The position numbers and the translations under genes were made by a program. From a virus, in the IMG/VR virus record IMGVR_UViG_3300037189_014748, positions 1-43,563 of that record: a DNA stretch of 43,563 nt; one strand, given 5' to 3'. A model generated the notes under the pieces. The model was not told the origin of the DNA. It did not search any database and saw nothing but the letters and a program-made list of their open reading frames with translations. This document shows positions 4,282 through 21,933 of the stretch, one piece after another; positions within the stretch are counted from its first letter, which is position 1, and the number at the start of each line of letters is the position of its first letter.

Positions 4282-4593
4282 ATGGACGAATTATCACAAG
4301 CAAAATTAGACGAAGTAGTCGCAAAAGACATTCCTGAACTCTCCGATAACGATATTGTATTCTTACAAGCACGCAGAGGGTATTTAAACAAAGAACAAAA
4401 TGTTAAATTTGCCTCAGTTTTAAAAGAAAAAGTTGAGATTGAAGTCCCAGTAGATGCAACGTACGTCTCAACTAAAGATATAAAGAAAAAAGCAGCTTCA
4501 CTAGGAATCGACCATAAGGGCAAGTCTCGTGAAGAACTAGAAGTGGCCATCTCAACAGTAGAAGGCCCAGCAGGTGCGAACAAACCAGAGTAA
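4282..4593 (+). CDS. Small head-region protein with SAP-like C-terminus
   Basis: A 103-residue protein. The segment KDIKKKAASLGIDHKGKSRE (about residues 73-92), followed by ELEVAI, resembles the short helix-extended-helix SAP/LEM-like motif that phages often place at the end of small head proteins. The N-terminal half (LSDNDIVFLQARRGYLNKEQ) is charged. It is expressed from its own predicted leaderless promoter and is followed by the scaffold gene after a 25-nt gap. A role as a head-tail joining or head-completion accessory is possible but unproven. Confidence 0.65.
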   Translation: MDELSQAKLDEVVAKDIPELSDNDIVFLQARRGYLNKEQNVKFASVLKEKVEIEVPVDATYVSTKDIKKKAASLGIDHKGKSREELEVAISTVEGPAGANKPE

Positions 4594-5525: not shown

Positions 5526-6635
5526 ATGGCAGCACGAGCAACAACGCTTGCGCAAGGATTCTCTCAGAAACTCTTAAAAGAGATGTATGATAGAAACATT
5601 CTTGATGCAATTGTAAACAGAGATTATGAAGGTGAAATCAATGGAGTCGGCTCCAAGATGAACATCTTAAACTTCGATAGGTTGTCAGAAAAAACCTACT
5701 CAGGCGCAGATTTATCAGTTGATTCTCTAACAGAGAATAACAGCACTCTTACAATAAGCGAGTATAAGTCGTTTTATTGGAAAGAAAAAACTCTTGATAA
5801 CTGGCTTTCCTACATCAAGAACCCACATGCAACCATCGTCTCACAAAAGGCAGACGAGAGAAGCAAAAACATGGATTCCTTCGCTTTTGGATTCTATGGG
5901 GACGTAGCAGCAGGAAACAGAGTTGGAACAGACTACACCACAGGAACCGTCACGGTTGACGCTGTAACAGGTGCAGTTACTGGTGGAGGCACGACCTTTA
6001 CCGCAGCTATGGTAGGACGTGGTTTTAAAGCCACAGGGCATAGCCGATGGTATAGGGTTAAAACTTACACCAATCCAACATCAATCGTCATTGAAGATGA
6101 CAAGGATGACGCAGCTTCAGCCTACACAGGCGGAGCAATCGGAGGAGGCTCAACTTACACGATTGAAGCAGTAACGGCCGTCTCAGTGACGACCACCAAT
6201 TTGCTTCAGAAGGTTGCAGACCTACGACAGAAATTGGATAAGGCAGAAGCCAACAGCTTAAATGCTGTCCCACAAGAGGGTAGATGGCTAATCATGCCAC
6301 CTGAGTTCTTGAACACATTGGTTCGAGCATCAGGAGTAGCACTTCATGTTCCTGAAGTCTACACAGACCTTATCAAAAAGGGTTATCAAGGTGATTTGTT
6401 AGGATTTAAGATTTTCGTAAGCAATCGCCTAACAGGGAACAACACAGACGGATACAGAGTCCTTGCAGGACATCCAAATTGGATGACTTTTGCAGAGAAA
6501 ATGTTGTCTGCTGACATCGAGGAAGACCTAATCGGTAACTTCGGTACAGCTTACAAAGATTTGTTTGTGTACGGTGCGAAGGTTGCAGATTCACGACGCT
6601 CACAAGCGGCTGAATTATTCTGCACATTTGCCTAA
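5526..6635 (+). CDS. Major capsid protein (HK97 fold)
   Basis: A 369-residue protein after the scaffold gene. The N-terminus (QGFSQKLLKEMYDRNILDAI), the segment on stress-bearing loops (SYIKNPHATIVSQKADERSKN), an inserted Thr/Gly-rich beta domain (~135-215) and a C-terminal segment with RWLIMPPEFLNTLV, GFKIFVSNRLT and FVYGAKVAD match HK97-fold coat proteins of the P22-like/podoviral type. The inserted domain is probably surface-exposed. It has a dedicated promoter with a long leader, unlike its neighbours, which may raise expression. A GC-rich hairpin follows the stop codon. Confidence 0.88.
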   Translation: MAARATTLAQGFSQKLLKEMYDRNILDAIVNRDYEGEINGVGSKMNILNFDRLSEKTYSGADLSVDSLTENNSTLTISEYKSFYWKEKTLDNWLSYIKNPHATIVSQKADERSKNMDSFAFGFYGDVAAGNRVGTDYTTGTVTVDAVTGAVTGGGTTFTAAMVGRGFKATGHSRWYRVKTYTNPTSIVIEDDKDDAASAYTGGAIGGGSTYTIEAVTAVSVTTTNLLQKVADLRQKLDKAEANSLNAVPQEGRWLIMPPEFLNTLVRASGVALHVPEVYTDLIKKGYQGDLLGFKIFVSNRLTGNNTDGYRVLAGHPNWMTFAEKMLSADIEEDLIGNFGTAYKDLFVYGAKVADSRRSQAAELFCTFA

Positions 6636-6653: not shown

Positions 6654-6677
6654 CCCTGCTGGGGAAACTCAGCAGGG
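6654..6677 (+). terminator. Strong hairpin after the capsid gene
   Basis: Perfect 8-bp stem CCCTGCTG/CAGCAGGG with an 8-nt loop, 18 bases after the capsid stop. There is no T-tract, so it may stabilise or process the capsid mRNA end rather than terminate fully. The next ATG is 22 nt downstream. Confidence 0.55.
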
Positions 6678-6698: not shown

Positions 6699-7622
6699 AT
6701 GAGCAATTTCAAACTAATAGAACAACTATCGACAGCAACTCAAAAAGAGATTACTCGTATATTGGCCCTTTCCGCTGCTTCACGCACAGCTTCAGAACAA
6801 GCATTTTTAGACGCTAGAATTCCTTACCAGTACAATCGTGTCATCAGATACGATAGAGGAGTTTCAACGCCTCAGAATCCACTTCCTGATTCAACATCAG
6901 CTCTTATCACAGAAGCTGAAGGAAATATCGTCCCAGATGGAGATTCAGGATTTAAGCCAGGAGCTAGATTCTATGACCTTGATAAGTCAGGTGCTAATGT
7001 ATATGTAAACGTCGGAACCTCAACGTCAGCTCAATGGCTATTAGAAGGCGGAGCAATCGGTTCAGTCTCAGCATCTCTATCGGTCTCACTTTCCCCATCA
7101 TCAACGCCATCAACCTCAGTTTCACGCTCTGTATCTCCTTCTCCATCACTTTCAATCTCGCTATCCCCATCTGTGTCAATTTCAAGCAGCCCATCTCTTT
7201 CACCATCTTTAAGCGCATCGGTTACACCATCGGTATCGGTATCCCGAAGCCCATCTTTATCGGCTTCTCTCTCTGCGTCGCTTACACCATCAACAAGCGT
7301 TTCCCTATCAATTTCTCTAACGCCATCAACCTCTGCCTCTAAATCAGACTCTCCATCAGCGTCTATTTCTCCATCACCATCACAAACGCCGTCGTCCTCA
7401 GTGTCTCTAAGCCCATCCACGTCGCCATCGCTATCTGGTTCGTTGTCACCATCACTATCGGGTTCGTTAAGCCCGTCATTATCTGGCTCATTAAGCCCAT
7501 CTTTATCCCCATCAGCAACCGCTTCCCCATCAGTCAGCGCATCCAGCTCGGCATCCCTCTCAACGTCACCATCATTAAGTACGTCTGCTTCAGACTCTCC
7601 TTCCCCATCATTCCCATTCTAA
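6699..7622 (+). CDS. Capsid-adjacent protein with C-terminal Ser/Pro-rich tract
   Basis: A 307-residue protein. Residues 1-121 form an ordinary domain (helical start, then GFKPGARFYDLDKSGANVYV) resembling small capsid-associated proteins. Residues ~122-307 are almost entirely Ser, Pro, Leu, Val, Ile, Ala and Thr in the pattern SPSxSxSxSPS, with a few SGSLSPSL repeats. Position after the coat gene suggests a decoration or head-fibre protein whose extended tail could project from the capsid. The tract uses mainly TCN Ser codons, and the codons vary from repeat to repeat, so the pattern is conserved at protein level. It may be a target for O-glycosylation (inference). The start is preceded by GGGAAAGAG, a weak ribosome site. 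Confidence 0.75.
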   Translation: MSNFKLIEQLSTATQKEITRILALSAASRTASEQAFLDARIPYQYNRVIRYDRGVSTPQNPLPDSTSALITEAEGNIVPDGDSGFKPGARFYDLDKSGANVYVNVGTSTSAQWLLEGGAIGSVSASLSVSLSPSSTPSTSVSRSVSPSPSLSISLSPSVSISSSPSLSPSLSASVTPSVSVSRSPSLSASLSASLTPSTSVSLSISLTPSTSASKSDSPSASISPSPSQTPSSSVSLSPSTSPSLSGSLSPSLSGSLSPSLSGSLSPSLSPSATASPSVSASSSASLSTSPSLSTSASDSPSPSFPF

Positions 7623-7660: not shown

Positions 7661-8461
7661 ATGGTCTCCATAATCATACCTTCAAGAAAAGAACCCTACC
7701 TTAGTAAAACCATAAAAGACCTCCTCGTAAAAGCTAAAGGTGAAATTGAAATTATAGCCATTCTTGATGGTTACTGGGAAAAGGCAGAGGACATAGTTAT
7801 TGACCCAAGAGTCAATTATCTTCACTTCGCAACGTCAAAAGGAATGAGAGCTTGCATAAATGCAGGAGTATTACTTGCCAAAGGTGAATATATCTTAAAA
7901 ACAGACGCACATTGTTTATTTGCTAAAGGTTTTGATGAGCAACTGGTCAAGGACTGTGAGAAACATGATGTAATCGTGCCTCGTAGGTATAGATTAGACC
8001 CTGAGAAGTGGGAAGTCATTGAAGATGGAAGACCACCTGTAGATTATGAGTACCTAGACCCTGTTGATTTACATGGTGTCAGATGGGAAGAAAAAGCAAT
8101 AGAGAGAAAAGACGTAATGATTGACGAGATTGTTTCAGCACAAGGAAGTTGTTGGTTTACTCCTAAAAAACATTTTGAGTCCGTAGAAGGACTAGATGAA
8201 GACTCCTATGGTAAATTCTTCCTAGAATTTCAGGAAATATCCTTTAAGACATGGCTCTCAGGTGGTAGAGTTCTGGTTAATAAAAATACCTCATACGCCC
8301 ATTGGCACAAGACCGATGGTAGAGGGTATAGTCTGGACAATGATAGAGAAAAAGCTGTAGAGTTTATGCAAAAGTGGAGAGATGATAAAGCATGGTCGAA
8401 GCAAGAATTGAAATTTGAGTCTCTTATTAAAAAGTTTTCAGATATGCCAGGATGGGAATAA
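7661..8461 (+). CDS. Family-2-like glycosyltransferase (GT-A fold)
   Basis: A 266-residue protein opening with VSIIIPSRKEPYLSKTIKDL and IIAILDG, the standard nucleotide-binding start of GT2 enzymes. It is followed by GMRACINAGVLLAKGEYIL and K-T-D-A-H-C, which occupies the place of the DxD metal/sugar-nucleotide motif. A later GSCWFTPKKHF / ED..GKFF.EF region fits the acceptor side. It is predicted to transfer a sugar from an NDP-sugar. It starts the cargo island from its own promoter, and its end overlaps the next ATG by 10 nt. The N-terminal half of the 12388 gene is a paralogue with the same K-x-DAHC motif. Acceptor unknown. Confidence 0.85.
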   Translation: MVSIIIPSRKEPYLSKTIKDLLVKAKGEIEIIAILDGYWEKAEDIVIDPRVNYLHFATSKGMRACINAGVLLAKGEYILKTDAHCLFAKGFDEQLVKDCEKHDVIVPRRYRLDPEKWEVIEDGRPPVDYEYLDPVDLHGVRWEEKAIERKDVMIDEIVSAQGSCWFTPKKHFESVEGLDEDSYGKFFLEFQEISFKTWLSGGRVLVNKNTSYAHWHKTDGRGYSLDNDREKAVEFMQKWRDDKAWSKQELKFESLIKKFSDMPGWE

Positions 8462-9672
8462 CTAGCGGAGTAGGAGTTATAGAGAAGCGTGTTTTGTACG
8501 CTCAGGCGGTTTTTGGTCGTGAGGAAGTCAATGCTGTGGTTAAGAGTTTGGAAAATGGTTGGCTTGCAAGCGGGCCTTTAGTAAAGAAGTTTGAGCAAAG
8601 CGTAGCTTCACTATTTGGCAAAAAATACGGAATAGCGGTTAATTCGGGGTCATCAGCCAACTTACTAGTAATCTCAGCACTTGGTGCGCAAAAAGGCTCG
8701 GAAATAATCACTCCTGCATGTACGTTCTCGACTACGGTTTCTAACATAGTGAATTGTGGATATAAGCCTGTATTTGTGGACTCTGTGGTGGGAAGATACA
8801 CGATAAATGAAGACTTAGTGGAAGCGGCAATAAATAGTAAAACCTGTGCAATTATGGTTCCTCAACTTATTGGTGGGATATGTGATATGCCTCGACTTTA
8901 TGAAATAGCCAAAAAACATAATCTAGTTCTGATAGATGATTCTTGCGATACTTTAGCCCCAACTATAAAAGGTCATCAAGTCTCTCGTTATGCTCACGTC
9001 TCTACCACCTCATTTTACGGCTCTCACATTATAACTGCCTGTGGAATGGGAGGAATGATAATGACCAACAATAAGGAGTATAGAGATAAAATGGTTTCAC
9101 TAAGAGATTGGGGGCGAGTGGGGAATGACGCTGAAGCCTTTGAGAATAGATTTGATTTTGAAATCGATGGGATTCCTTACGATGCTAAATTCCTCTACAC
9201 TGGATTTGGGTACAACTTGAAAATGAACGAAGTTGCAGCAGCCTTTGGATTAGAGCAACTGAAACGCCTAACTAGATTTACTCAGAAACGAAAAAAGAAC
9301 TTTGAAAAGTTATATAACTTCTTCTCAAACTACGAGGAACATTTCCATTTACCAGAACTCATCAAGGGAGCGACTACTAACTGGCTCGCTTTCCCACTTA
9401 CCATAAGAAAAGAAGCTCCTTTTAAGCGTTACGACCTGCTAAAACACCTTGAGAAAGACGGTATTCAAACCAGAGTTTTATTTTCAGGAAACATCACAAG
9501 ACACCCAGTTTACAAAGACAATCCTCTAACGTGGAGACAGGTTGGGGAACTATCTAAATCAGACTTTATTATGGCTAATGGATTCTTAATAGGTGCGCAT
9601 CAAGGCATGGGAGACAGAGAGATAGAAATTATTGCCGATTCAGCAATGAGATTTTTTAACCAATATGAATAA
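8452..9672 (+). CDS. DegT/DnrJ/EryC1-type PLP enzyme, probable sugar 3-dehydratase
   Basis: A 406-residue fold-type-I PLP enzyme. NSGSSANLL (about residues 60-68) binds cofactor phosphate, ACTFSTTVSNIV follows, and LIDDSCDTL carries the PLP-ring Asp. At the Schiff-base position the sequence reads SFYGSHIIT, with His where aminotransferases have Lys. His at this site is the hallmark of the CDP-4-keto-6-deoxyglucose 3-dehydratase (E1/RfbH/ColD) branch, so deoxygenation of a 4-keto sugar at C3 is more likely than transamination. That branch can need an iron-sulphur reductase partner, and none was found here. It overlaps the flanking genes by 10 and 8 nt. It probably supplies a deoxysugar to the neighbouring transferases (inference). 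Confidence 0.82.
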   Translation: MGITSGVGVIEKRVLYAQAVFGREEVNAVVKSLENGWLASGPLVKKFEQSVASLFGKKYGIAVNSGSSANLLVISALGAQKGSEIITPACTFSTTVSNIVNCGYKPVFVDSVVGRYTINEDLVEAAINSKTCAIMVPQLIGGICDMPRLYEIAKKHNLVLIDDSCDTLAPTIKGHQVSRYAHVSTTSFYGSHIITACGMGGMIMTNNKEYRDKMVSLRDWGRVGNDAEAFENRFDFEIDGIPYDAKFLYTGFGYNLKMNEVAAAFGLEQLKRLTRFTQKRKKNFEKLYNFFSNYEEHFHLPELIKGATTNWLAFPLTIRKEAPFKRYDLLKHLEKDGIQTRVLFSGNITRHPVYKDNPLTWRQVGELSKSDFIMANGFLIGAHQGMGDREIEIIADSAMRFFNQYE

Positions 9673-10423
9673 CGACCTAAGCATAATTTATTACAGTAGT
9701 AATTATTTGGAAACCAAACATCCTGAGTTTGTAAGAAAGACTCGTGAGAACTTATTAAAGGTGAAAGGAGACATTCCTCTTATTAGCGTTTCTCAGCGAC
9801 CTATGGACTTTGGAGAGAATGTCTGCGTTGGAGAGATAGGTAGGTCGCACTTTAATATCTATCGCCAAATCTTAGAAGGATGTAAAAGAGCCAAAACTAA
9901 ATGGGTAGCTATGGCAGAGGATGATATTTTATACTCAGACTCGCACTTTCATCCGTTTCTATTTATCAAACATCCAAAAGACGATACTTTCTACTACGAT
10001 ATGAACAAAGTTTCAATGTTCACTTGGACACGACCTCAGATATTCTCCTATAGAAGTAAACGCCAAGTGGTGAACCACCTCATAGCACCACGAGAAATGC
10101 TCATAGATGCCCTTACAGAGAGGTTTGCTCGATTAAAGGTATTAGTAGACCAAATGGGAATAGAACACCCTGAAATTGAACATCCTGAGCTTAGAATTCA
10201 AAAGTATTGGGGAGACCCTGGAAGGTACGAAGATTTACTTGGAGTGACCGTGCGTAAGACAGATACTTTCTATGCTTGGAGACCCTCAATAGTCTTCTCA
10301 CATGAGTTTGCCTACGGTTACGAAATGAATCAGGGTAAGAAGAAGAAACATGGAGACCTTAGAATAATTGAACTTGCAGATTGGGGAAGAGCTGATAAGA
10401 TTTATCATGACTATTATGAATGA
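9665..10423 (+). CDS. Glycosyltransferase-like protein
   Basis: A 252-residue protein with LSIIYYSSNYL at the start, LISVSQRPMDFG, then IYRQILEGCKRAKTKWVAM and AEDDILYSDSHFHPF, where EDD sits at the expected metal-binding position of a GT-A-like fold. The same architecture appears in the C-terminal domain of the 12388 gene (CEHDWLYHPSHFHF, then DTFYY in both), so the two are paralogues. It overlaps the upstream gene by 8 nt and the downstream methyltransferase by 8 nt, consistent with coupled translation. The family is not named with certainty; nucleotide-sugar transfer is inferred. Confidence 0.7.
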   Translation: MNNDLSIIYYSSNYLETKHPEFVRKTRENLLKVKGDIPLISVSQRPMDFGENVCVGEIGRSHFNIYRQILEGCKRAKTKWVAMAEDDILYSDSHFHPFLFIKHPKDDTFYYDMNKVSMFTWTRPQIFSYRSKRQVVNHLIAPREMLIDALTERFARLKVLVDQMGIEHPEIEHPELRIQKYWGDPGRYEDLLGVTVRKTDTFYAWRPSIVFSHEFAYGYEMNQGKKKKHGDLRIIELADWGRADKIYHDYYE

Positions 10424-10928
10424 ACTACAGAAGAAGTCGCTTTATGGTTCACATATGCCTGTACTGGCTAAGATAATGGACTTATCTGATGGGCCTGTTT
10501 TGGAACTTGGAATGGGTATTTACTCCACTCCACTACTGGATATGATGTGTAAAGAACAAAAACGTGAACTCATATCCTATGACAATGATCCTAAGTGGTT
10601 TAAAGAGAATGAGAAATGGACTTCTGATTATCATAAGGTCTACTTTGTAGGGGATTGGGATGAGATTGAGGTTGAATTAGTAACTTCACATTGGGGAGTT
10701 GCTTTTATCGACCACAAACCTGCCAAACGTAGGAAGGTAGAGATGAAACTATTAGCACAACACGCCAACTATGTTATAGTCCATGACACCGAACCCGAAT
10801 CAGACAAGTTCTTCAAATATACTTGGATGCACAAGTATTATAAATATCAATGGAACTACACTAAGGCGAGACCTCATACTTCAGTCTTCTCCAACTTCAT
10901 AGACCTACAAGGACTTGACAGGAAATAG
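10416..10928 (+). CDS. Class I SAM-dependent methyltransferase-like protein
   Basis: A 170-residue protein. GPVLELGMGIYSTPLL (about residues 22-37) is motif I of the Rossmann methyltransferase fold, ELISYDND the acidic end of motif II, and GVAFIDHKPAKRRKVEMKLL and YVIVHDTEP fit the later strands. The start was set at 10416, where ATGAATGA overlaps the previous stop; an upstream in-frame ATG at 10368 would force a 56-nt overlap. Context in a sugar-modifying island suggests methylation of a sugar or glycan (inference). Confidence 0.72.
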   Translation: MNELQKKSLYGSHMPVLAKIMDLSDGPVLELGMGIYSTPLLDMMCKEQKRELISYDNDPKWFKENEKWTSDYHKVYFVGDWDEIEVELVTSHWGVAFIDHKPAKRRKVEMKLLAQHANYVIVHDTEPESDKFFKYTWMHKYYKYQWNYTKARPHTSVFSNFIDLQGLDRK

Positions 10929-10944
10929 GAAAGGTGTGTAGGAT
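10915..10944 (+). promoter_or_regulatory. Leaderless-type promoter for the 10951 gene
   Basis: TTGACA (10915-10920), 18-bp spacer, TAGGAT (10939-10944), then 6 nt to the ATG at 10951. It overlaps the end of the methyltransferase gene. Confidence 0.72.
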
Positions 10945-10950
10945 GTATAC

Positions 10951-11184
10951 ATGAATAGGTTTAATGTTCATCTCACAAAAGACCAAGTATTTTACTTAAA
11001 AAACCTAGATGGTGCTTCAATAGCCCAACACATTAGAACCGCAATAGATTCCTATATTCAAGATAAAAAGAACCTTAACGTCAGCACATCAGCCTCAAAT
11101 GCGTGTAATTTCTGTAACGAGGAGAATAAGGACAAATACAATATCGGAGAACCTAAGTGTTTTTACTGTGGGAGATATATATGA
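10951..11184 (+). CDS. Ribbon-helix-helix-like protein with C-terminal zinc ribbon
   Basis: A 77-residue protein. Residues 1-42 (RFNVHLTKDQVFYLKNLDG then ASIAQHIRTAIDSYI) have the strand-helix-helix pattern of Arc/CopG-type DNA-binding proteins. The C-terminus carries CNFC and CFYC pairs, a probable zinc ribbon. It has its own predicted promoter inside the late block, and its stop (ATGA) overlaps the next ATG. It is a candidate regulator of the cargo genes or late promoters. Function inferred only. Confidence 0.65.
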   Translation: MNRFNVHLTKDQVFYLKNLDGASIAQHIRTAIDSYIQDKKNLNVSTSASNACNFCNEENKDKYNIGEPKCFYCGRYI

Positions 11185-11405
11185 GTGATTTTATAAAAGT
11201 AGCCAATTCACCAGTTTTTAAACTCAAAGACAAACAGAACAAAAACTATATGAAGATAAATCTTGTGGATGTATTTGGATTCCCACCAAAAGTAATAATT
11301 ATTGAGAAAATACCACGAATGAATAATACGTTAATAGTTAGGGGGATAATCCCTGATGACATGGATGAAAGCGAGGTGCAAAATGGAAAAAAGTCCAGTA
11401 ATTAA
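11181..11405 (+). CDS. Small unknown protein in the cargo island
   Basis: A 74-residue protein beginning at the ATGA overlap with the preceding stop (an in-frame ATG at 11157 is less likely). The predicted content is mostly beta (FKLKDKQNKNYMKINLVDVF, KVIIIEKIP, LIVRGIIPD). No family recognised. It sits between a putative DNA-binding protein and a Tad2-like gene, so it may belong to an accessory regulatory or anti-defence unit. Confidence 0.55.
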   Translation: MSDFIKVANSPVFKLKDKQNKNYMKINLVDVFGFPPKVIIIEKIPRMNNTLIVRGIIPDDMDESEVQNGKKSSN

Positions 11406-11619
11406 ATTAAAACCAGAGGAATTTAGTTTCCCAGTTGCCATCCATCATTTAATTGAGGGGAAACGTATTGCAAGAACTTCATGGGGAGATGCCCCAGATT
11501 ATGGAGTGCTAAAAGATGGATACCTGATGATATTTCGTCAAGATAAGTTTTTTCAATGGATTTTAAATGACGGAGATTTACAAGGCGAGGATTGGCAAGT
11601 TTTACCAAATATAAACTAA
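11383..11619 (+). CDS. DUF2829 / Tad2-like protein (candidate anti-Thoeris)
   Basis: A 78-residue protein. The sequence from residue ~12 (FPVAIHHLIEGKRIARTSWG) and the ending FFQWILNDGDLQGEDWQV match the plan of DUF2829: a short helix, G-K-x-[IV]-x-R-x-x-W, beta strands and a terminal D-L-x-x-x-D-W-x-[IV]. Members of that family include Tad2, which sequesters the cyclic ADP-ribose-type signal of Thoeris defence. The start at 11383 has GAGG upstream and lies inside the previous gene; an in-frame ATG at 11356 is the alternative. Its stop overlaps the next ATG (TAATG). The family call is from pattern only; anti-defence activity is inferred. Confidence 0.6.
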   Translation: MEKSPVIKLKPEEFSFPVAIHHLIEGKRIARTSWGDAPDYGVLKDGYLMIFRQDKFFQWILNDGDLQGEDWQVLPNIN

Positions 11620-12401
11620 TGTTACCTCAAGAGCAAAGAGAGAAAATTGCGGTCATAGGTGCAACGGGATGGGTAGGCAAATCCATGCTTGAACTTTTCC
11701 CTAATGCTTATATGTATTCCCGTCATTTGGGAGACCAAGATGAAGTAAATCGTAGGAGCGTAGCCTTCCTGTGCGTACCTTCGCCTGAGACAGCAGAGGG
11801 AAAGCTAGACACCCATATAGTAGAAGATATTATCGCTTGGTGCGAGTGTCCTTTAATTGTCGTTCGTTCTACTGTAAACCCAGGAGATTGTGATAGATGG
11901 GCTCAGAAGTATAAGCGAAGAATAGTACACCAGCCAGAATTTTTGGGCGAGACACCGAATCATCCTCTTTTGAATCCGTTAAACACTCCATTTATTATCT
12001 TAGGAGGTAAGCAACACAACACTAGAGAAGTAATAGAACTATATGCGACTGTCTATAACGCTAATGTAAAAATACGTCAGGTCAGCCTTTTGGAATCAGA
12101 GGTTATCAAACTATCTGAGAATAGAGCGATTGCCTATAAAGCAATGCAAATGCACGAACTTTATAAAGTGTGCGAGAAAGCAGGACTAGATTACTACACC
12201 ATAAGGGATGCTGTTTACGGAGATGACCCACGATTTGACCTCTGGTTTACGTTTATTTACCCAGAGAAATTAGGGTTTGAGAACTCTAAGTGTCTAAAAA
12301 AAGATGTTCCAGCTTGGTGTGCGTGGGCTGAGTCCATCGGAGCAGACCCTCAAGTAACCAAAGCATTAGTAAAAGCAAGCAAAGAGTATGCCTCCTTATG
12401 A
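11619..12401 (+). CDS. Nucleotide-sugar dehydrogenase-like protein (short form)
   Basis: A 260-residue protein with an N-terminal Rossmann motif (IAVIGATGWVG, residues ~10-20). It also has FLCVPSPE, VVRSTVNPG, QPEFLGE and a later KLSENRAIAYKAMQMHELYKV helix, the order found in UDP-glucose/GDP-mannose dehydrogenases. The usual catalytic Cys segment GxCLPKD is represented by KCLKKD near residue 229, so the Cys is kept. The family usually has ~430 residues with a C-terminal UDP-binding domain, absent here. It may be a reduced single-domain enzyme or act on a different acyl sugar. It is coupled on both sides (TAATG upstream, 14-nt overlap downstream). Confidence 0.75.
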   Translation: MLPQEQREKIAVIGATGWVGKSMLELFPNAYMYSRHLGDQDEVNRRSVAFLCVPSPETAEGKLDTHIVEDIIAWCECPLIVVRSTVNPGDCDRWAQKYKRRIVHQPEFLGETPNHPLLNPLNTPFIILGGKQHNTREVIELYATVYNANVKIRQVSLLESEVIKLSENRAIAYKAMQMHELYKVCEKAGLDYYTIRDAVYGDDPRFDLWFTFIYPEKLGFENSKCLKKDVPAWCAWAESIGADPQVTKALVKASKEYASL

Positions 12402-14028
12402 CCTCAGCGTGCTTATACCTGCCCGCTCCGAAGAATTCCTCAATCTCACCGTACAGGACATCCTAAATAAGAAACGTGGTCGCACTGAAGTAATAGTCGG
12501 CTTAGATGGTGAATTTGCAGACCCTCCTTTAGAAGACCATCCCGACCTCACAATCCTCTACTATGGTAAATCTATCGGTCAAAGAGCTATGACCAACCAG
12601 TGTGCTAAGTTAAGTAAGGCAAAGTGGGTGATGAAAATAGACGCTCACTGTGTCGTAGATGAAGGATTTGATGTTAAGCTCTTAGAGGGAGCGCAAGACA
12701 ACTGGACTGTAGTTCCTACTCTTTACAACCTACATGGGTTTGACTGGGTATGTAGACACTGTGGTCGCAGAGATTATCAAGGCCCTAGTGAGAAGTATCT
12801 TAAATGTCCTAAATGTGGAAAGAACCGAGAGCGTGAGATCATCTTCAAACCCAGACTTAATCGTAAGACTACAGCTTGGAGATTTGATAAGACATTACAT
12901 TTCCAGTATTGGGGTGAGTACTCACATAAACAAGAAGGAGATTACGCAGACACCTTATCAATTCAAGGGTCTTGCTTTATGCTCACAAGGGATAAGTATT
13001 GGGAATTAGATATATGTGATGAGGGACATGGCTCATGGGGACAACAGGGGACAGAAGTGGCTTGTAAAACATGGCTCTCAGGTGGAGAAGTAAAAACGTG
13101 CATGAAAACATGGTATTCACATCTATTTAGGACTCAGGGAGGGGACTTCTCATTTCCCTACCCACAGGATAACAAGCAAGTAGAACATTCTCGCTCATAC
13201 TCAAGGGGATTGTTTATTGAAGGGAAGTGGGATAAAGCTATTCATCCTCTATCGTGGCTACTTGCTAAGTTTTCGCCCGTACCTGATTGGGACAATGAAA
13301 AACTTAAAGTAGATAAACCCAAACCCCCAACCAAATCAATCATATATTACACAGATAACGCTCTGAACATGAAAATTGCGACAGCTTGTCGTAAACAAAT
13401 CTCAAAAGCTAAACTTCCTATCGTTTCCACTTCATTAAAACCTCTTAACTTTGGGAAGAACTTTGTAATGCCGTACAAACGAGGATATGAGGCTTACTTT
13501 AGACAAATCCTAAAGTGTTTAGAGGAATCTACTGCGGAGATAATTTACCTCTGCGAGCATGATTGGCTATATCATCCCTCGCACTTCCATTTCACACCTC
13601 CTAGAAAAGATACTTTTTATTATAACCATAACTGGTGGAGGGTTAGGTCGTCAGATGGACACGCAGTGCATTACGATACTCAACTACTTCCTGGGCTGGT
13701 AGCTTATAGGGAATTGCTTTTAACTCACTACAGAGAGGCTGTTGCTTACATGGAAAAGCATGGGTTTGATTCAGACACAGCTCATAAGGTAGGGTTTGAG
13801 CCAGGAACTCATGGGCGAGTACAATTTAGTAGCGGAACTCGTGTAGAAAGATTTGACTCTGAATATCCAATAATTGATATTCGTCACGGTAACAATTTAA
13901 CGTCCTCAAAATGGTCTCCCGATGAGTTTAGAAGCCCTAAAAATGCTCAAAATTGGCGTGTAGCGGAACATTTAGAAGGATGGGATACAGTTAAGGGTCG
14001 ATTTGATAAACTTCTCTCCTCGGTTTAA
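12388..14028 (+). CDS. Two-domain glycosyltransferase with internal zinc ribbon
   Basis: A 546-residue protein. Residues ~1-95 are a GT2 core (LSVLIPARSEEFLNLTVQDI, VIVGLDG, AMTNQCAKLSKAKWV, K-I-DAHC) paralogous to the 7661 product. Residues ~118-150 contain two CxxC pairs (CRHC, CPKC), a zinc ribbon inserted in the GT fold. From residue ~310 a second domain (SIIYYTDNALNMK, PLNFGKNFVMP, AEIIYLCEHDWLYHPSHFHF, DTFYY) is paralogous to the 9665 product. So one gene combines the two kinds of transferase encoded separately upstream. It overlaps the dehydrogenase gene by 14 nt and ends the island. It may add two sugars in sequence (inference). Confidence 0.82.
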   Translation: MPPYDLSVLIPARSEEFLNLTVQDILNKKRGRTEVIVGLDGEFADPPLEDHPDLTILYYGKSIGQRAMTNQCAKLSKAKWVMKIDAHCVVDEGFDVKLLEGAQDNWTVVPTLYNLHGFDWVCRHCGRRDYQGPSEKYLKCPKCGKNREREIIFKPRLNRKTTAWRFDKTLHFQYWGEYSHKQEGDYADTLSIQGSCFMLTRDKYWELDICDEGHGSWGQQGTEVACKTWLSGGEVKTCMKTWYSHLFRTQGGDFSFPYPQDNKQVEHSRSYSRGLFIEGKWDKAIHPLSWLLAKFSPVPDWDNEKLKVDKPKPPTKSIIYYTDNALNMKIATACRKQISKAKLPIVSTSLKPLNFGKNFVMPYKRGYEAYFRQILKCLEESTAEIIYLCEHDWLYHPSHFHFTPPRKDTFYYNHNWWRVRSSDGHAVHYDTQLLPGLVAYRELLLTHYREAVAYMEKHGFDSDTAHKVGFEPGTHGRVQFSSGTRVERFDSEYPIIDIRHGNNLTSSKWSPDEFRSPKNAQNWRVAEHLEGWDTVKGRFDKLLSSV

Positions 14029-14065: not shown

Positions 14066-15781
14066 ATGACCGACTTCCAAAGACGTTTAATTGAGAGACT
14101 GGCGATATTTAAGCAATATGAGAAAGATATTCTTGTTTATGCAAACACAGACGGTGGTCGTTATCTACTTCAGCAAAAAGACAGATTCCCAATCGTTAAG
14201 GTTGCTCCTAATGCTTACTTTGAATCACTACCAGATGGTAAAACTAGAGGTACGTTCTGGGGAATAGATGCTGTATCCAACCTATTTATCCCCACTTTAG
14301 AAAAATTAAGAATAATTCAGGAGACTAAATACGCTCCTAGCTTATTAGAACAATACGAAGCCTTTTTACACTTCTCAGGTTTGGAAAGAAAATATGCGAG
14401 GTTTGGAGATATTCTTCTTGACACCTACAATCCTAGTACCTCATTTGAGGATGGTCGTGTTTTCAGAACAGGTAACGATGAAACTTGGGCGGCGCAGCAA
14501 GGTGGAAATGGTCAGGGCGCACAGCAAGGTTCGGCTGATCCAGGTAATGAGTGGTGCCAAATACAGACATCAACTACGTCAGACCAATGGGCGCAGTGTA
14601 TTCGAGGAATCGCTCAATTTGATACATCGGCCATACCTGATGATTCAATCATAGATGCTGCAACTTTAGGACTCTATGTCGTAAGTGTAGACCAAACAAT
14701 AGCTGGTCAATCGGTAAATATAGTTAGTGCGCCAACTGGAGATCCTGCAACTCTAGCCTCAGCAGACTATCAGACAATGGGTTCTACTCAAGTTGCTACT
14801 GCGATAACTCTTGCCAGCATGACAACTGGTGCATTTAATACATTTACCTTAAACTCAGATGGTAGAGCTTTGGTGTCTATAACTGGAGTGACAAAACTTG
14901 GGGTAAGATTTGTTTCAGACATAACAAATTCTCCTCCTACATGGGCATCAAACGTAGGTGCTGCGTTTAATTGTCGTTGGCATACAACAGCAGGAGGGGT
15001 AAGCAAACCAGTTTTAACCGTTACATTCTCGTCAATCAGTTCGAGCCTTTCTTCATCACTTTCTCCATCCCTGACTCCCTCCCTTTCCATATCTCTGTCA
15101 CCATCTCTATCACAATCACTGTCAATATCTCTGTCTCCAAGCTCATCTCCAAGTTTCTCAGGTTCTAATTCGCTGAGTCCATCGCCATCTACAAGCGTTT
15201 CTGTTTCCATCAGTGTAAGTCCAAGTTCTTCAATAAGTGTAAGTGAATCAGCGTCAATAAGTCATTCAGCTACAAACTCTCCATCTCCATCCATATCACC
15301 AAGCCTTTCCCCATCCTCGACTTTATCGGCCAGCCCATCAAGTTCTACCTCCCCATCCGCTTCTCCCTCTGCGGGATTCGCAATGTTCACCCGTGATGAC
15401 CAGTCCTCGCTTCCATCTAACGACAATGACTTAACAACGCAATACACAGAACAGGAAGAAGAAGATGTTTCAGTAAGAGACGATACTAGAGTTGGTCAAG
15501 CAGGAACTCTACAATACATGATTCACCAGTTTAAGAAGTTTGTGGGTTCTCAAACGTATGCTTTAATTGAGGCAGAGGTTCAATCGACTCTTGATCCCAG
15601 ATACTCAACTGTTTATTTACAAATCTATAATCGTAATTCCTCAACGTGGGAAACTATTGATTCTAATTCAACCTCAGACTCAGATGTAGACTTTGAATTA
15701 TCGGCAGTAGTTTCAGATCTTACTAATTACAAAGATGCCAGTAATGTTGTAAGTTGTCGAATCTATCAATTGGCTATTTGA
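14066..15781 (+). CDS. Appendage protein: DNRLRE-like domain, Ser/Pro tract, C-terminal domain
   Basis: A 571-residue protein in three parts. Residues ~1-110 are a helical N-terminal domain, perhaps virion-attachment. Residues ~125-322 (starting with DTYNPSTSFEDGRVFRTGND) resemble the DNRLRE/carbohydrate-binding-like beta domain that carries repeated FDTSAIPDDSIIDAATLGLYV-type strands. Residues ~323-435 are a Ser/Pro tract (SPSLSISLSPS), followed by a ~130-residue C-terminal domain (YTEQEEEDVSVRDDTRVGQ onwards) that is not low-complexity. The tract therefore acts as a linker or stalk between two folded domains. It is probably a tail-fibre or capsid-fibre component. Both AGY and TCN Ser codons are used. 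Confidence 0.72.
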   Translation: MTDFQRRLIERLAIFKQYEKDILVYANTDGGRYLLQQKDRFPIVKVAPNAYFESLPDGKTRGTFWGIDAVSNLFIPTLEKLRIIQETKYAPSLLEQYEAFLHFSGLERKYARFGDILLDTYNPSTSFEDGRVFRTGNDETWAAQQGGNGQGAQQGSADPGNEWCQIQTSTTSDQWAQCIRGIAQFDTSAIPDDSIIDAATLGLYVVSVDQTIAGQSVNIVSAPTGDPATLASADYQTMGSTQVATAITLASMTTGAFNTFTLNSDGRALVSITGVTKLGVRFVSDITNSPPTWASNVGAAFNCRWHTTAGGVSKPVLTVTFSSISSSLSSSLSPSLTPSLSISLSPSLSQSLSISLSPSSSPSFSGSNSLSPSPSTSVSVSISVSPSSSISVSESASISHSATNSPSPSISPSLSPSSTLSASPSSSTSPSASPSAGFAMFTRDDQSSLPSNDNDLTTQYTEQEEEDVSVRDDTRVGQAGTLQYMIHQFKKFVGSQTYALIEAEVQSTLDPRYSTVYLQIYNRNSSTWETIDSNSTSDSDVDFELSAVVSDLTNYKDASNVVSCRIYQLAI

Positions 15782-15866: not shown

Positions 15867-15946
15867 TGAAAACATTCTTTGGTTCGCTTCTATTTTTGTT
15901 ACTTCTTCCTCTCATATTTTTTATGAGATGGGCTAAGGAGGAATAA
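15866..15946 (+). CDS. 26-residue single-helix membrane peptide
   Basis: Product begins MKTFFGSLLFLLLLPLIF and ends MRWAKEE. A short basic start, ~15 hydrophobic residues and a charged tail predict a single membrane helix. It is chained by 1-nt overlaps to the 17-residue peptide upstream and the 659-residue fibre gene downstream; its last codons contain the AAGGAGG that acts as Shine-Dalgarno for that gene. Function unknown. Confidence 0.55.
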   Translation: MKTFFGSLLFLLLLPLIFFMRWAKEE

Positions 15947-17925
15947 TGGCAGTTTCAGGGAGTAATTTAACAGCAAATTACAATGATGGAGCGGGAAGTT
16001 CTTTTTCCACCGCCTCCGTGTCTCCGACTTCAAACAGACTAATTCTACTCACATGCTCGGCACGTAGAACGGACTCTACTCAACCAGTCGCCCCAACTGT
16101 TACGGGAAATAGTTTGACATGGGTAAAAATAGCAGAAATATATTTTGACACCACATCAAGTAGTAGAAAAAGTCTATTTTTGTACAGAGCTTTGGGATCA
16201 TCTCCTGCGTCTGGCGCTGTCACCATAGACTACGGCGCACAAACCATAACGGGATCAAACTGGTCGGTTGACGAATTCTCAGGAATAGATACGTCAGGCA
16301 CTAATGGGTCTGGTGCAGTAGTGCAATCTGCCACCAATAAGGAAGATGCGGGTGACGGAGGCCAATTAACAGTTACTTTATCGGCTTTTAGTAACACCGC
16401 TAACGCTACTTTTGGTTGTTTTTGTCACGATAATACAGGGAATACGTGGGCTGCGGGATCTGGTTTTACCAAAATAGGGACATCGGATTCTCCGACATAT
16501 AATTCGGTAGGAACAGAATGGAGATCTGACAATTCTACTTCAGTAGATATGTCTGTTGCGAGTGGGGCAGGTGTTAGTATGGGTGGAATAGCTATAGAAA
16601 TAAAAGCAGCTGCATCAAGTCCAAGCTCGTCAATCTCATCTTCGATCTCACCGTCTCCGAGTTTGAGTATAAGTCTTAGCCCCTCTGCCTCTGTTAGTCC
16701 CTCCTCCTCAATAAGTCTTTCTCCTTCAGTTTCTCCATCTGCCAGCGTTTCTCCATCATCGAGCATATCTTTATCACCCTCGATCTCGGTAAGTCTTTCC
16801 ATTAGTGCATCTCCCTCAAGTTCGGTAAGTCCAAGTTCATCTATTAGTCTATCAATCTCACCCAGTCCTTCCGCTTCTGTGTCTCCGTCATCAAGTATAT
16901 CTTTGTCACCTTCCGTGTCGGTAAGTATGTCTGAGTCACCCTCGCCAAGTAGTAGCGTTAGCCCATCAAGTAGCATCTCTCCTTCCCCTTCGGTTTCTGT
17001 AAGTTTGTCTATTAGTCCCTCGCCATCTTCCTCAGTAAGTCCCAGTTCTTCGATTTCACTAAGTTTTAGTCCTTCTCCGTCTTTGAGCATTTCTTTATCA
17101 CCGAGCGTATCTGTCTCAGCTTCACCTTCTAACGCATCGTCCGAATCTCTATCAGTATCCTTGTCACCATCCCTATCACCTAGCGTTTCTGAGTCGGTAT
17201 CTGCTTCCTCATCCGTCTCACCAAGTAGCAGTATATCTTTATCGCCAAGCATATCTGCTTCTGCCTCACAGAGTTTCAGTTCATCTATCTCGCTTTCACC
17301 TAGTGTCTCGGCTAGCTCATCAATATCTCCATCCTCTTCACTAAGTGCGAGTGAGTCTGTCTCAGAGAGTATTTCCCAATCAGTTTCGGTATCATTTTCA
17401 CCAAGTTTATCAATCTCTTTATCTCCTAGCTCATCATCTTCTCTATCCCCATCTTTATCGCAGAGTCTTTCACAATCACTCACTCCAAGTGCTAGTCCAT
17501 CTATCTCTGCCACCCTAAGTTCATCTTTGAGCATTTCCCCAAGTCCATCGGTGTCAATAAGTCAATCTCCCTCAACTTCCCTATCCATCTCATCCAGTTT
17601 TTCTCCGTCACCTTCTGCCTCGCCATCACCCTGTGAACATGAGCTATCAATAGATTACTTCAATATCAGATCAGCGCAACAATATAGCCTAAAGGTAGAT
17701 TACTTTGAACTTCTTTATCCAATAGCCTTCGCCAACAAATACACCGATTTATCTACCTCTTATACCGATAAATACTCGGTCTTATCAACTTCTTATACCA
17801 ATAAGTACACAGAATTTGACGCTGTATATCAGGATACATATGGTAAGAAATATGGATGCTACAACGCAAAATATCATCGTAACCTCACGCAGTACACTCG
17901 TAAATACCCACCTAACAATACTTAG
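15946..17925 (+). CDS. Large Ser/Pro-tract fibre protein
   Basis: A 659-residue protein. Residues 1-223 form a beta-sandwich-like domain (ILLTCSARRTDSTQPVAPTV, SGAVTIDYG, GNTWAAGSGFTKIG, GGIAIEIKAA), like those of phage carbohydrate-binding appendages. Residues ~224-563 are the longest Ser/Pro tract in the genome, about 340 residues with Ser at roughly every second position. The C-terminal ~95 residues are aromatic, with repeated K-Y-T-(D/E)-(L/F) and STSYT(D/N)KY units. Ser codons alternate between AGY and TCN, so the DNA is not a simple repeat. A clear AAGGAGG precedes the start, unusual in this genome. Likely a long, flexible virion fibre. Confidence 0.75.
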   Translation: MAVSGSNLTANYNDGAGSSFSTASVSPTSNRLILLTCSARRTDSTQPVAPTVTGNSLTWVKIAEIYFDTTSSSRKSLFLYRALGSSPASGAVTIDYGAQTITGSNWSVDEFSGIDTSGTNGSGAVVQSATNKEDAGDGGQLTVTLSAFSNTANATFGCFCHDNTGNTWAAGSGFTKIGTSDSPTYNSVGTEWRSDNSTSVDMSVASGAGVSMGGIAIEIKAAASSPSSSISSSISPSPSLSISLSPSASVSPSSSISLSPSVSPSASVSPSSSISLSPSISVSLSISASPSSSVSPSSSISLSISPSPSASVSPSSSISLSPSVSVSMSESPSPSSSVSPSSSISPSPSVSVSLSISPSPSSSVSPSSSISLSFSPSPSLSISLSPSVSVSASPSNASSESLSVSLSPSLSPSVSESVSASSSVSPSSSISLSPSISASASQSFSSSISLSPSVSASSSISPSSSLSASESVSESISQSVSVSFSPSLSISLSPSSSSSLSPSLSQSLSQSLTPSASPSISATLSSSLSISPSPSVSISQSPSTSLSISSSFSPSPSASPSPCEHELSIDYFNIRSAQQYSLKVDYFELLYPIAFANKYTDLSTSYTDKYSVLSTSYTNKYTEFDAVYQDTYGKKYGCYNAKYHRNLTQYTRKYPPNNT

Positions 17926-17964: not shown

Positions 17965-19575
17965 ATGTCAAATTTGTATGAGATTAAGGAATTTCTTGGA
18001 GGAATATCTCCTTTTGAAGACAGAGGAATCAAAGGAGCGTTTAAGTTTGGTAAAAATCTCTCAATTAGAAAGAAGGTAGATTCTCTATCTTGTAACCAAG
18101 CTCTTATTGAGGAAGGATTACACTCAAGTCACTCACCGTCATCGTCTACATCACCATCTTTATCAGTATCTAGGTCTGTCTCGCCTTCTCCATCGGCTTC
18201 ACCTAGTCCAACAGCTTCGCCATCTGCTTCTGCGAGTTTTTCTGCATCCGTATCACTTAGTCCATCGACTACGCCATCATCTTCTGGGTCTCCATCACCG
18301 TCTCCTTCAAACGGAGCTAACGTATCAACGATATTTCAGGATTTGATTCATTGGTTTGTCAAAGCAACCGATGGATATACATACGGGTTTGGAAACACGG
18401 GCTATATTTATAGGCGTGACTCATCAGGATATTGGCAGATAGTTTACAAAGACCCTAATGGTGCAATCCTTGGAGCTGCTGAATGGTACTCAGACACAGG
18501 TAAGACTTATCTATATTGGGCTACTTTAAGACAGTTAAATCGTAAACCCTTACCAGGACTTGCCAACTGGAACGATGTAAATGTAGGTGGAACAGGAACA
18601 TGGCCTAAAACTAACCTAGAAAGTGCAGATTGGCACACAATGACCGAAGGTGGTGGGTCACTAATTATCGCTAATCGTCAGTTTGTTGCTTTAGTTGGAT
18701 ACGATGATTCTTACACAAACGAATTCATTAACCTAATCCCAGGGAATATGGCAACTACTCTAGTAGAAAGAAATGGTCGAACTATAGTCGGAACGGCAAG
18801 AGTATCAGACCCAGCACGTTCAATAAACGCTGCAATAGATTCAGAAGTACCTCTAGCTCAGGTCGGAAGCGATGGTGAGATATTCTTTGCCAATATGTCT
18901 GATTCAATAGCTGCCAAAAGATTTCCAGGAGGAGGAAAGGTAAACCCAGGAGGGGTTTGTAACGAAGTCAATCAGGCTAACTTCTTTGAGGTTGAACAAA
19001 ATTCATTAAACTGGATAGACAAGCAGAGTGTTGGGAATATGTCCCTATGGGGAGTCTACAACGCAGATTCAGGGTACAACGGTATATACTCCTATGGTCG
19101 TAAAGACAAAGACAAGCCTTTTGTAATGAATATGGAATATGAAATGGATGTTGATGAAATTGGAGCTTTAACTAACGCCAACGGAACTACCTTAGCCTCC
19201 TACAGAGATGGGTCTACCTTTGGAGTGCGAGCAGTTGATTCCACAACCAAAGCAGAAGCAGTTTATGAGGGATTAGACTTTAGACCCAAACAGAAACTAC
19301 CAGTTGAGATTAGTGTATGGAAGCAAGCAGAGCTACAGATGGAACCCTTACCAGCAGGGGCTTGGATTGAATTCTGGTATAAACTTGATAAAACAGGGGA
19401 TTTTGTAAGAGCCTATGTGGCAGATGGTTCAACCCAAAGATTCACGACAGCAAACAGTAAAAAAGTTATATTTAGAATTCAACGCAGCGGTGAAGTTTTT
19501 GAGCCTCGTGTAGTCTTGCATCCAGCGACCAATGATTCCCCAGAGGTTTATAAAATTGTCACATATTTTTCATAA
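17965..19575 (+). CDS. Tail/appendage protein with short Ser/Pro tract and large C-terminal domain
   Basis: A 536-residue protein. Residues 1-52 (EIKEFLGGISPFEDRGIKG, then FGKNLSIRKKVDSLSCNQAL) look like an anchoring domain. Residues ~53-116 are a Ser/Pro tract. The remaining ~420 residues are a folded domain starting at FQDLIHWFVKATDGYTYGFG, with GYIYRRDSSGYWQIVYKD and TYLYWATLRQLNRKPL, suggesting beta-propeller-like blades. The last part (FVRAYVADGSTQRFTTANSK) is beta-rich. The stop abuts the next ATG directly. A structural component of the tail or its fibres (inference). Confidence 0.75.
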   Translation: MSNLYEIKEFLGGISPFEDRGIKGAFKFGKNLSIRKKVDSLSCNQALIEEGLHSSHSPSSSTSPSLSVSRSVSPSPSASPSPTASPSASASFSASVSLSPSTTPSSSGSPSPSPSNGANVSTIFQDLIHWFVKATDGYTYGFGNTGYIYRRDSSGYWQIVYKDPNGAILGAAEWYSDTGKTYLYWATLRQLNRKPLPGLANWNDVNVGGTGTWPKTNLESADWHTMTEGGGSLIIANRQFVALVGYDDSYTNEFINLIPGNMATTLVERNGRTIVGTARVSDPARSINAAIDSEVPLAQVGSDGEIFFANMSDSIAAKRFPGGGKVNPGGVCNEVNQANFFEVEQNSLNWIDKQSVGNMSLWGVYNADSGYNGIYSYGRKDKDKPFVMNMEYEMDVDEIGALTNANGTTLASYRDGSTFGVRAVDSTTKAEAVYEGLDFRPKQKLPVEISVWKQAELQMEPLPAGAWIEFWYKLDKTGDFVRAYVADGSTQRFTTANSKKVIFRIQRSGEVFEPRVVLHPATNDSPEVYKIVTYFS

Positions 19576-20844: not shown

Positions 20845-21933
20845 ATGGCAACATTTACACAGGCGATTCAAAGCAGTAATGATAACGGGTCAAAGTTCGG
20901 AAGTGGAAGTTCGTGGACTACTACTTACGTTCAAATGGGATTAACCATATCCACTGGTTCCGCCAGCGGCGCATTTCGTTTTACAGGCGTAACTATCCCT
21001 GCAGCCTCAACTATAACCTCAGCCAAAATTACTTGGTATCCTTCGGGAACGTATAGTGCTGACAGAATTATTCTTCAAATAGCGGGGATAGACGAAGACA
21101 ATACTGCGGATTTTTCATCGAGTCCTCTTGGAAGAACAAAAACTACAGCTACGGTTACTGGATACCATCCGAACCCTTCAACAAATGGAGTGGCGAAAGA
21201 TACCCCAAGCCTTACCGCTATAGTTCAAGAGATTGTAGACAGAGCTGGATGGAGTTCTGGGAACGCTATGGGGTTCATTATAGAAGATAATGGAGGAACG
21301 GCCGATAACACAATGAATTGGAGTGACTATAATGACCCTGCTGGACAGGAGGCGGTTCTGACAATAGATTATGCTGGAAACTCTCCCTCTCCCAGTATAA
21401 CTCCCTCATCTAGTATTAGCCTCTCCCCTTCTTCAAGCACTTCGCCAAGTTCTAGTTTTTCAGCATCCTCTTCATTTTCTCCCTCTGCATCGCCATCACC
21501 AAGCGCAGCTCCCACTTACGGAACGTATTTAAGGGTAGCAAAATCAGGAGTAAATGCTCTTACCAATTCTGACCCTGAGAAAATGAAATTTGATTCTGCG
21601 TATGGAACCTTAAAATACTACACTAAGCAAACAAAACAAGTAACTTTCACAGCGGGTGCGCCAGATAACTATGTTTCTGGCAGTGCGACCTATACTCACT
21701 CTCTAGGCTATTACCCCTTTACCGAAGTGTTTGTCAGAGTATATATAGGAAGTCCATCAGGAAATTACGAGTACTGTCCTTTTTTTGGGTCAGGAGCTTC
21801 TGTTGCTTACAGCGCAAATTATAAAATAACAACTACAGACATAGTTGTTTATGGGTCAGTGGACGGTGTATCTTCAAGTACATGGGTTTTTGATTTTCTC
21901 ATCTTTGTTTACAAAAACGACCTCAACTTATAA
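20845..21933 (+). CDS. Fibre protein: DNRLRE-like domain, Ser/Pro linker, paralogue 3 domain
   Basis: A 362-residue protein. Residues 1-177 are a beta-sandwich-like domain (FRFTGVTIPAASTITSAKIT, DRIILQIAGIDEDNTADF, GFIIEDNGG, EAVLTIDYAG) resembling the DNRLRE-like part of the 14066 product. Residues ~178-222 are a short Ser/Pro linker. Residues ~228-362 (YLRVAKSGVNALTNSDPEKM, YTHSLGYYPFTEVFVRVYIG) are the third copy of the tail module encoded by the two preceding genes. It combines modules otherwise found separately. Likely a receptor-binding or fibre component. Confidence 0.7.
   Translation: MATFTQAIQSSNDNGSKFGSGSSWTTTYVQMGLTISTGSASGAFRFTGVTIPAASTITSAKITWYPSGTYSADRIILQIAGIDEDNTADFSSSPLGRTKTTATVTGYHPNPSTNGVAKDTPSLTAIVQEIVDRAGWSSGNAMGFIIEDNGGTADNTMNWSDYNDPAGQEAVLTIDYAGNSPSPSITPSSSISLSPSSSTSPSSSFSASSSFSPSASPSPSAAPTYGTYLRVAKSGVNALTNSDPEKMKFDSAYGTLKYYTKQTKQVTFTAGAPDNYVSGSATYTHSLGYYPFTEVFVRVYIGSPSGNYEYCPFFGSGASVAYSANYKITTTDIVVYGSVDGVSSSTWVFDFLIFVYKNDLNL

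Follow-up and report, generated by a model that had tools for sequence, protein, structure and literature searches.

GT27-like transferases encoded beside alternating serine tracts suggest a dedicated O-glycosylation cassette for virion proteins in a phage of likely Patescibacteria hosts

What do the sugar-modifying enzymes encoded within the structural region of a tailed phage act upon, the surface of the host cell or the virion itself? The question is raised by an island of genes at 7661-14028 of the IMG/VR virus record IMGVR_UViG_3300037189_014748, analysed here over its whole length of 43,563 nucleotides (the window), which an original prediction made from the sequence alone had read as a dedicated system for O-glycosylation of the phage's own Ser/Pro tracts. 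The window is bounded by an exact 87-bp direct terminal repeat (1-87 = 43477-43563) and thus the genome record is probably complete, the longest relatives measuring 40-44 kb; its structural genes lie on the plus strand from position 26 to about 30,300. Our analysis supports the original prediction through the GT27-like character of the enzymes and their two-way co-occurrence with the tracts, and we consider it probable that the island is a phage-encoded cytoplasmic O-glycosylation cassette, which would transfer sugars to tracts in proteins predicted to reach the virion.

The first transferase of the island, GT2a, is placed by Pfam only in the 'glycosyl transferase family 2', as its earlier GT2-like label anticipated, and its closer identity is with GT27. 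When a profile of 40 family members was compared with the PDB, the first match was the GT27 polypeptide GalNAc-transferase 1xhb (8.6e-17), spanning the whole catalytic domain (profile positions 4-259), with chondroitin synthase and generic GT2 chains following at 2e-11 or worse and matched mainly in the N-terminal part. Comparison of the AlphaFold2 model of GT2a (predicted local distance difference test score, pLDDT, 94.8) with PDB structures returned GT27 enzymes as all 50 of the 50 best matches (best 5.4e-16; template-modelling score by query 0.64-0.77), and the second such enzyme, GT2b, likewise ranks GT27 first. Residues D82 and H84, forming a DxH motif, and the distal H214 are invariant in the 40 members and align with the Mn2+ ligands of GT27 (as compared with 1xhb). 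Metal coordination by Asp-x-His plus a distal His has been shown before (PMC11074326), and a shift from DxD to DxH sets apart GT27 and GT60, whose common activity is the O-glycosylation of Ser/Thr in polypeptides (PMC7185993). Judged by sequence and predicted fold, GT2a and the N-terminal domain of GT2b are therefore relatives of the GT27 protein Ser/Thr O-glycosyltransferases. The ricin-type lectin domain of that family is absent, as GT2a stops with the catalytic domain (266 amino acids) and GT2b has a GTx domain instead, for which reason we name these enzymes GT27-like and not GT27. GTx itself is homologous to the C-terminal domain of GT2b, has an invariant acidic ExD motif (E85, D87) and matched no family beyond a sub-threshold hit to GT25 (PF01755, 0.035).

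Candidate acceptors are found in five proteins, A to E, each with a strictly alternating (Ser-x)n tract, 42-338 residues in length; in the three longest, 88-97% of the positions of one parity are Ser. Ser/Pro proteins do flank the island as described earlier, and the tracts extend beyond the flanking ones, protein A lying directly 3' of the capsid gene and B to E further downstream in the structural region. All five tracts exceed every one of 10,000 shuffles of their own residues and mix Ser codons of the TCN and AGY types, so that the pattern is maintained at the protein level; a merely expanded DNA repeat was rejected as their origin because both synonymous kinds of codon are mixed. None of the tract proteins has a hydrophobic signal-like N-terminus, and their domains were unmatched in PHROGs apart from one weak hit. 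Protein A is probably a head fibre, its N-terminal domain keeping its place after the capsid gene in both tract-bearing and tractless relatives.

Co-occurrence of tracts and transferases was examined in relatives gathered by their capsid protein regardless of sugar genes or tracts, together with a few found via GT2a, counting contigs with at least 2.5 kb beyond the capsid gene (62 relatives). The association that the original prediction had expected across phage genomes was found without exception in this family: 37 relatives combine a tract with a GT2a-family enzyme, 25 have neither and none has one only (Fisher test, 7e-18), and the stricter requirement of at least 6 kb after the capsid gene leaves 18 with both, 19 with neither and again none with a single partner. 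Relatives with one partner alone, which had been named as grounds for refuting the idea, are thus confined to a few fragmentary cases outside the family. On the capsid tree, tract and enzyme each need three changes, and these fall on the same branches; a relative of 70% capsid identity inside a tract-bearing clade (L044) has neither. A search of whole records with PF00535 detected no GT2 in the tractless relatives, even where the record measures 32-40 kb, except in G044, whose GT2 genes were discarded as a counter-case because they belong to another kind and not to the GT2a family.

The same concordance is seen within single proteins. Orthologues of fibre D contain a tract of about 40-68 residues at one junction in 8 enzyme-bearing records, and the flanking domains are joined directly in 5 enzyme-less ones; with the one enzyme-bearing phage whose fibre D is tractless (L077) included, the Fisher test for tract versus enzyme gives 0.003. 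Protein B is tractless in the enzyme-less L053, L060 and L065, protein E in the enzyme-less L058, and protein A of enzyme-less relatives retains its N-terminal domain, followed by a C-terminal part without Ser/Pro enrichment. That four separate proteins gain or lose their tracts along with the enzymes, in some cases at a distance of kilobases from the transferases, would be difficult to account for if the tract were not the substrate. Sugar genes of Patescibacteria phages are usually taken to change the host surface (PMC12911398), here for superinfection exclusion or host adhesion, the tracts being unmodified flexible linkers; this reading does not predict such concordance. Although the dehydratase and dehydrogenase of the island would also suit precursors of surface glycans, the closest solved enzymes work on protein Ser/Thr and the island holds no membrane or lipid-linked-sugar steps, so that we regard host-surface modification as unlikely. 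No membrane-like segment was seen in any enzyme of the island (the top 19-residue hydropathy mean is 1.32), which fits cytoplasmic protein substrates.

Tract and enzymes are also found together beyond this capsid family. Viral contigs were scanned for tract DNA, and both GT2a-type and GTx-type enzymes were present in each of the six long-tract phages without a relative of this capsid (G001, G002, G004, G005, G009 and G010), while neither type occurred in any of 274 tractless contigs of the same scans; DegT, used as a seed for control contigs, gave no matches. In the opposite direction, viral loci picked by the enzyme alone carried a tract in 66 of 80 cases, and in 30 of the 31 where at least 18 kb was covered; three further enzyme-picked records (G358, G361 and G365) have tract sequence elsewhere in the record. 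One scan yielded at least 544 relatives of the enzyme, and the INPHARED phage collection contained zero relatives of GT2a and only partial and distant matches to the capsid. These data bear on the possibility that the enzymes glycosylate another part of the virion, e.g. the capsid protein, and that the tracts are sugar-free extended spacers. There is precedent in mycobacteriophages, in which phage-encoded transferases are reported to glycosylate the phage's own structural proteins, capsids among them (Freeman et al. 2023, as cited in PMC11256854). However, phages with the same capsid family lacking tracts also lack the enzymes, and unrelated capsids are accompanied by the same enzymes when tracts are present, making such a target very improbable.

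Several observations weigh against tract-directed virion glycosylation. The independent gains and losses on the capsid tree are few, so few that a sign test corrected for the tree is powerless (p 0.5). L077 bears the enzymes and has a tractless fibre D, though a tract is present in its protein A. Outside the capsid family, G003 (6.9 kb) and G008 (20 kb) have a tract only, and G366, G359, G356, G364 and G362 the enzyme only; most of the single-partner cases are fragments, and in the tract-only G006 and G007 the tract sits where the contig breaks off. The virion location of A to E is predicted from gene position, the GT27 lectin domain is missing, and GT-A families switch acceptor easily.

Inspection of the remainder of the island (Table 1) upheld the genes, order and overlaps reported earlier, abutting sugar genes sharing 8-17 bases, and added three small open reading frames (ORFs) that had been overlooked. 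The two-domain transferase turned out to be a GT2a paralogue fused to a GTx paralogue. Inclusion of the island in the late transcript is supported only by strand and gene spacing; promoter and terminator scans gave signals at chance level. The pyridoxal phosphate (PLP)-dependent enzyme was rightly called sugar dehydratase-like, its best PDB chain being the CDP-6-deoxy-hexulose-3-dehydrase 3bcx, with His at the catalytic position: its SFYGSHIIT aligns with SFYPAHHIT of 3bcx and with SFYPAKHIT of 3bb8, a chain otherwise near-identical to 3bcx that has Lys where 3bcx and the window enzyme have His. The Cys-rich stretch of 3bcx (cyCapgCdntC) is aligned with a stretch devoid of Cys, and the lack of the E1 [2Fe-2S] Cys cluster makes the enzyme ColD-like rather than E1-like. 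The nucleotide-sugar dehydrogenase-like label also held, with a match to the central domain PF00984 (2.2e-9) and a catalytic Cys aligned with that of 3gg2; only the N-terminal and central Pfam domains match, the C-terminal nucleotide-binding domain being absent (260-269 amino acids vs about 450). The methyltransferase-like ORF is present as described and has homologues within the clusters of relatives, although neither Pfam nor PHROGs returned a family for it and the label derives from a motif seen by eye. Genes for the dehydratase, the dehydrogenase-like and the methyltransferase-like proteins are variable among relatives. The GT27-like domain of GT2b contains a CxxC...CxxC zinc-ribbon-like insertion (12751-12816). 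The Tad2-like (Thoeris anti-defence 2-like) gene has homologues close to sugar genes in many relatives and may serve in counter-defence or be a domain put to another use.

Table 1. Features of the window discussed in the text (aa, amino acids; PMP, pyridoxamine phosphate; NDP, nucleoside diphosphate)
Feature	Position	Strand	Basis
Major capsid protein, reference gene for comparison	5526..6635	+	phrog_267 major head protein, 2.8e-21
Protein A, probable head fibre: N-terminal domain of ~120 aa and C-terminal (Ser-x)n tract (7062-7613, 184 aa)	6699..7622	+	
GT2a, GT27-like glycosyltransferase, proposed initiator on tract Ser	7661..8461	+	PF00535, 9.6e-16
PLP/PMP-dependent sugar 3-dehydratase, E1/ColD type by His	8452..9672	+	PF01041, 1e-86; 3bcx, 2.7e-77
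GTx, second-type transferase, probable extender	9665..10423	+	Homology to GT2b C-domain; weak PF01755
Methyltransferase-like protein, probable sugar cap	10407..10928	+	Glycine-rich motif by eye
Small protein with two CxxC pairs, zinc-ribbon-like	10951..11184	+	Sequence
Small ORF	11157..11405	+	ORF call; no Pfam/PHROG family match
Tad2-like domain protein	11356..11619	+	PF11195, 8.9e-8
Short NDP-sugar dehydrogenase-like protein	11619..12401	+	PF00984, PF03721
GT2b, GT27-like N-domain (CxxC...CxxC insertion) fused to GTx-type C-domain	12388..14028	+	Sequence, profile, fold
Protein B, fibre-like, tract 15032-15373	14066..15781	+	
Protein C, fibre-like, tract 16618-17631	15946..17925	+	
Protein D, fibre-like, tract 18127-18312 between two conserved domains	17965..19575	+	Orthologue alignment
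Protein E, fibre-like, tract 21382-21507	20845..21933	+	

Around protein A, three further observations were made. Its first 50-60 residues (6699-6900) resemble a small protein whose gene (4282-4593) precedes that of the capsid, a resemblance that recurs across many relatives, and a common capsid- or scaffold-binding motif is possible. A strong GC-rich hairpin at 6654-6677, between the capsid gene and that of protein A, is possibly an attenuator or RNA-processing site balancing the expression of the capsid against that of downstream genes. In L044 (2469-3797) protein A is swapped for an unrelated repeat-bearing protein of 443 amino acids, and a similar one begins at the same place in L013.

Binning and homology point to Patescibacteria as the likely host. 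Across genomes from 84,980 species, this family of enzymes is almost confined to Patescibacteria metagenome-assembled genomes, including those of Woesebacteria, Zambryskibacteria, WWE3, Levybacteria and Saccharibacteria, and a locus binned to Woesebacteria (L497) combines relatives of the phage's first structural gene, terminase and capsid with a tract and the enzymes. Some of these bacterial loci are phage, L521 having a tape-measure-like gene close to the cluster; others lie on long contigs among cellular genes, the enzymes there being accompanied by tract proteins of great length. L506/L515 (G050 contig C2), L484, L492 and L519-L520 are chromosomal clusters with the same transferase families and very long Ser-tract proteins, adjoining cellular genes (TatC-like, RecG-like), and three such clusters share an upstream transposase-like gene and a membrane-anchored protein; they possibly represent a mucin-like system of the cell or phage genes that have been domesticated. 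Of 20 bacterial genomes bearing the enzyme, 19 gave no capsid match to PF05065, a result of little weight since the phage's own capsid is of a different type, and scanning whole Patescibacteria genomes for the Ser-tract DNA pattern was abandoned as too unspecific, most loci examined being tractless and many matches resembling other repeats. The chromosomal clusters, in which tract proteins and the same enzyme families are combined, lend some appeal to the idea that the phage enzymes act on host tract proteins, competing with or remodelling the host clusters. Nonetheless, the phage has five tract proteins of its own beside the enzymes, and an even sample of Patescibacteria contained the enzyme in only 4 of 287 genomes, which makes it accessory in the phylum; we hold this possibility to be highly unlikely.

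The proposed decoration of the phage's own tracts has parallels in several known systems. With the GT27 polypeptide GalNAc-transferases the phage enzymes share the GT-A fold, the DxH and distal His, the best sequence and fold match and a Ser/Thr/Pro-rich tract as presumed acceptor; they differ in lacking the lectin domain, in being cytoplasmic rather than Golgi enzymes, in their low identity (16-20%) and in their pairing with GTx. The mycobacteriophage system mentioned above likewise links phage-encoded transferases to structural proteins; there, in other phages with probably other hosts, the major capsid protein is the reported target, whereas here the candidates are (Ser-x)n tracts in fibre-like proteins served by GT27-like enzymes. 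Staphylococcal SdgA/SdgB glycosylation shields Ser-Asp repeats from proteolysis (PMC3794999). It offers alternating Ser dipeptide repeats, stepwise modification and transferase genes adjoining those of the repeat proteins, but its substrates are cell-surface adhesins, its enzymes are TarM-like and its repeats have Asp in place of Pro and aliphatic residues. The serine-rich-repeat systems (GspB/Fap1 with GtfA/GtfB) resemble the phage locus in that cytoplasmic transferases are encoded in a cluster linked to their (Ser-x)n acceptor; they differ in relying on GT-B enzymes for initiation and on accessory Sec for export. Neither was found in the phage, the recognisable transferases of the island being of the GT-A/PF00535 type and GTx unclassified. 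In the openly licensed papers searched we found no description of GT27-like, tract-directed virion glycosylation.

From the homology, linkage and concordance described we infer the following order of action. GT2a and the N-terminal domain of GT2b, given their family, would place the first sugar onto tract Ser (and Thr) in the cytoplasm; GTx and the C-terminal domain of GT2b, judging by their constant company and fusion with the GT27-like domains, may extend or branch it; and the 3-dehydratase, dehydrogenase-like and methyltransferase-like proteins, going by what their families do, could make or cap an unusual sugar. The decorated proteins A to E would then assemble into heads and fibres as stiff, protease-resistant stalks, by analogy with mucins and the SdgA/SdgB Ser-Asp repeats, so that A would surround the head with a brush of glycans and the tracts of B to E would act as glycosylated spacers within the tail fibres.

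Genes that would be annotated as 'auxiliary sugar gene' can now be approached as a virion-glycosylation system open to testing, and this across a large group of uncultivated phages; the finding also suggests that long Ser tracts across metagenomic phages are enzyme substrates and not junk repeats. Compact GT27-like enzymes with their probable native substrates encoded alongside would also be useful for tracing the origins of polypeptide O-glycosylation and for glycoengineering in laboratory strains of E. coli. More broadly, we lean, if only slightly, towards the view that the GT27-like transferases of tailed Patescibacteria phages serve to give the virion a mucin-like coat dense in O-glycans, in which case mucin-type protein glycosylation would exist outside eukaryotes as a portable module of enzyme and tract, common to these phages and some of their hosts and possibly sharing ancestry with the enzymes of eukaryotes.

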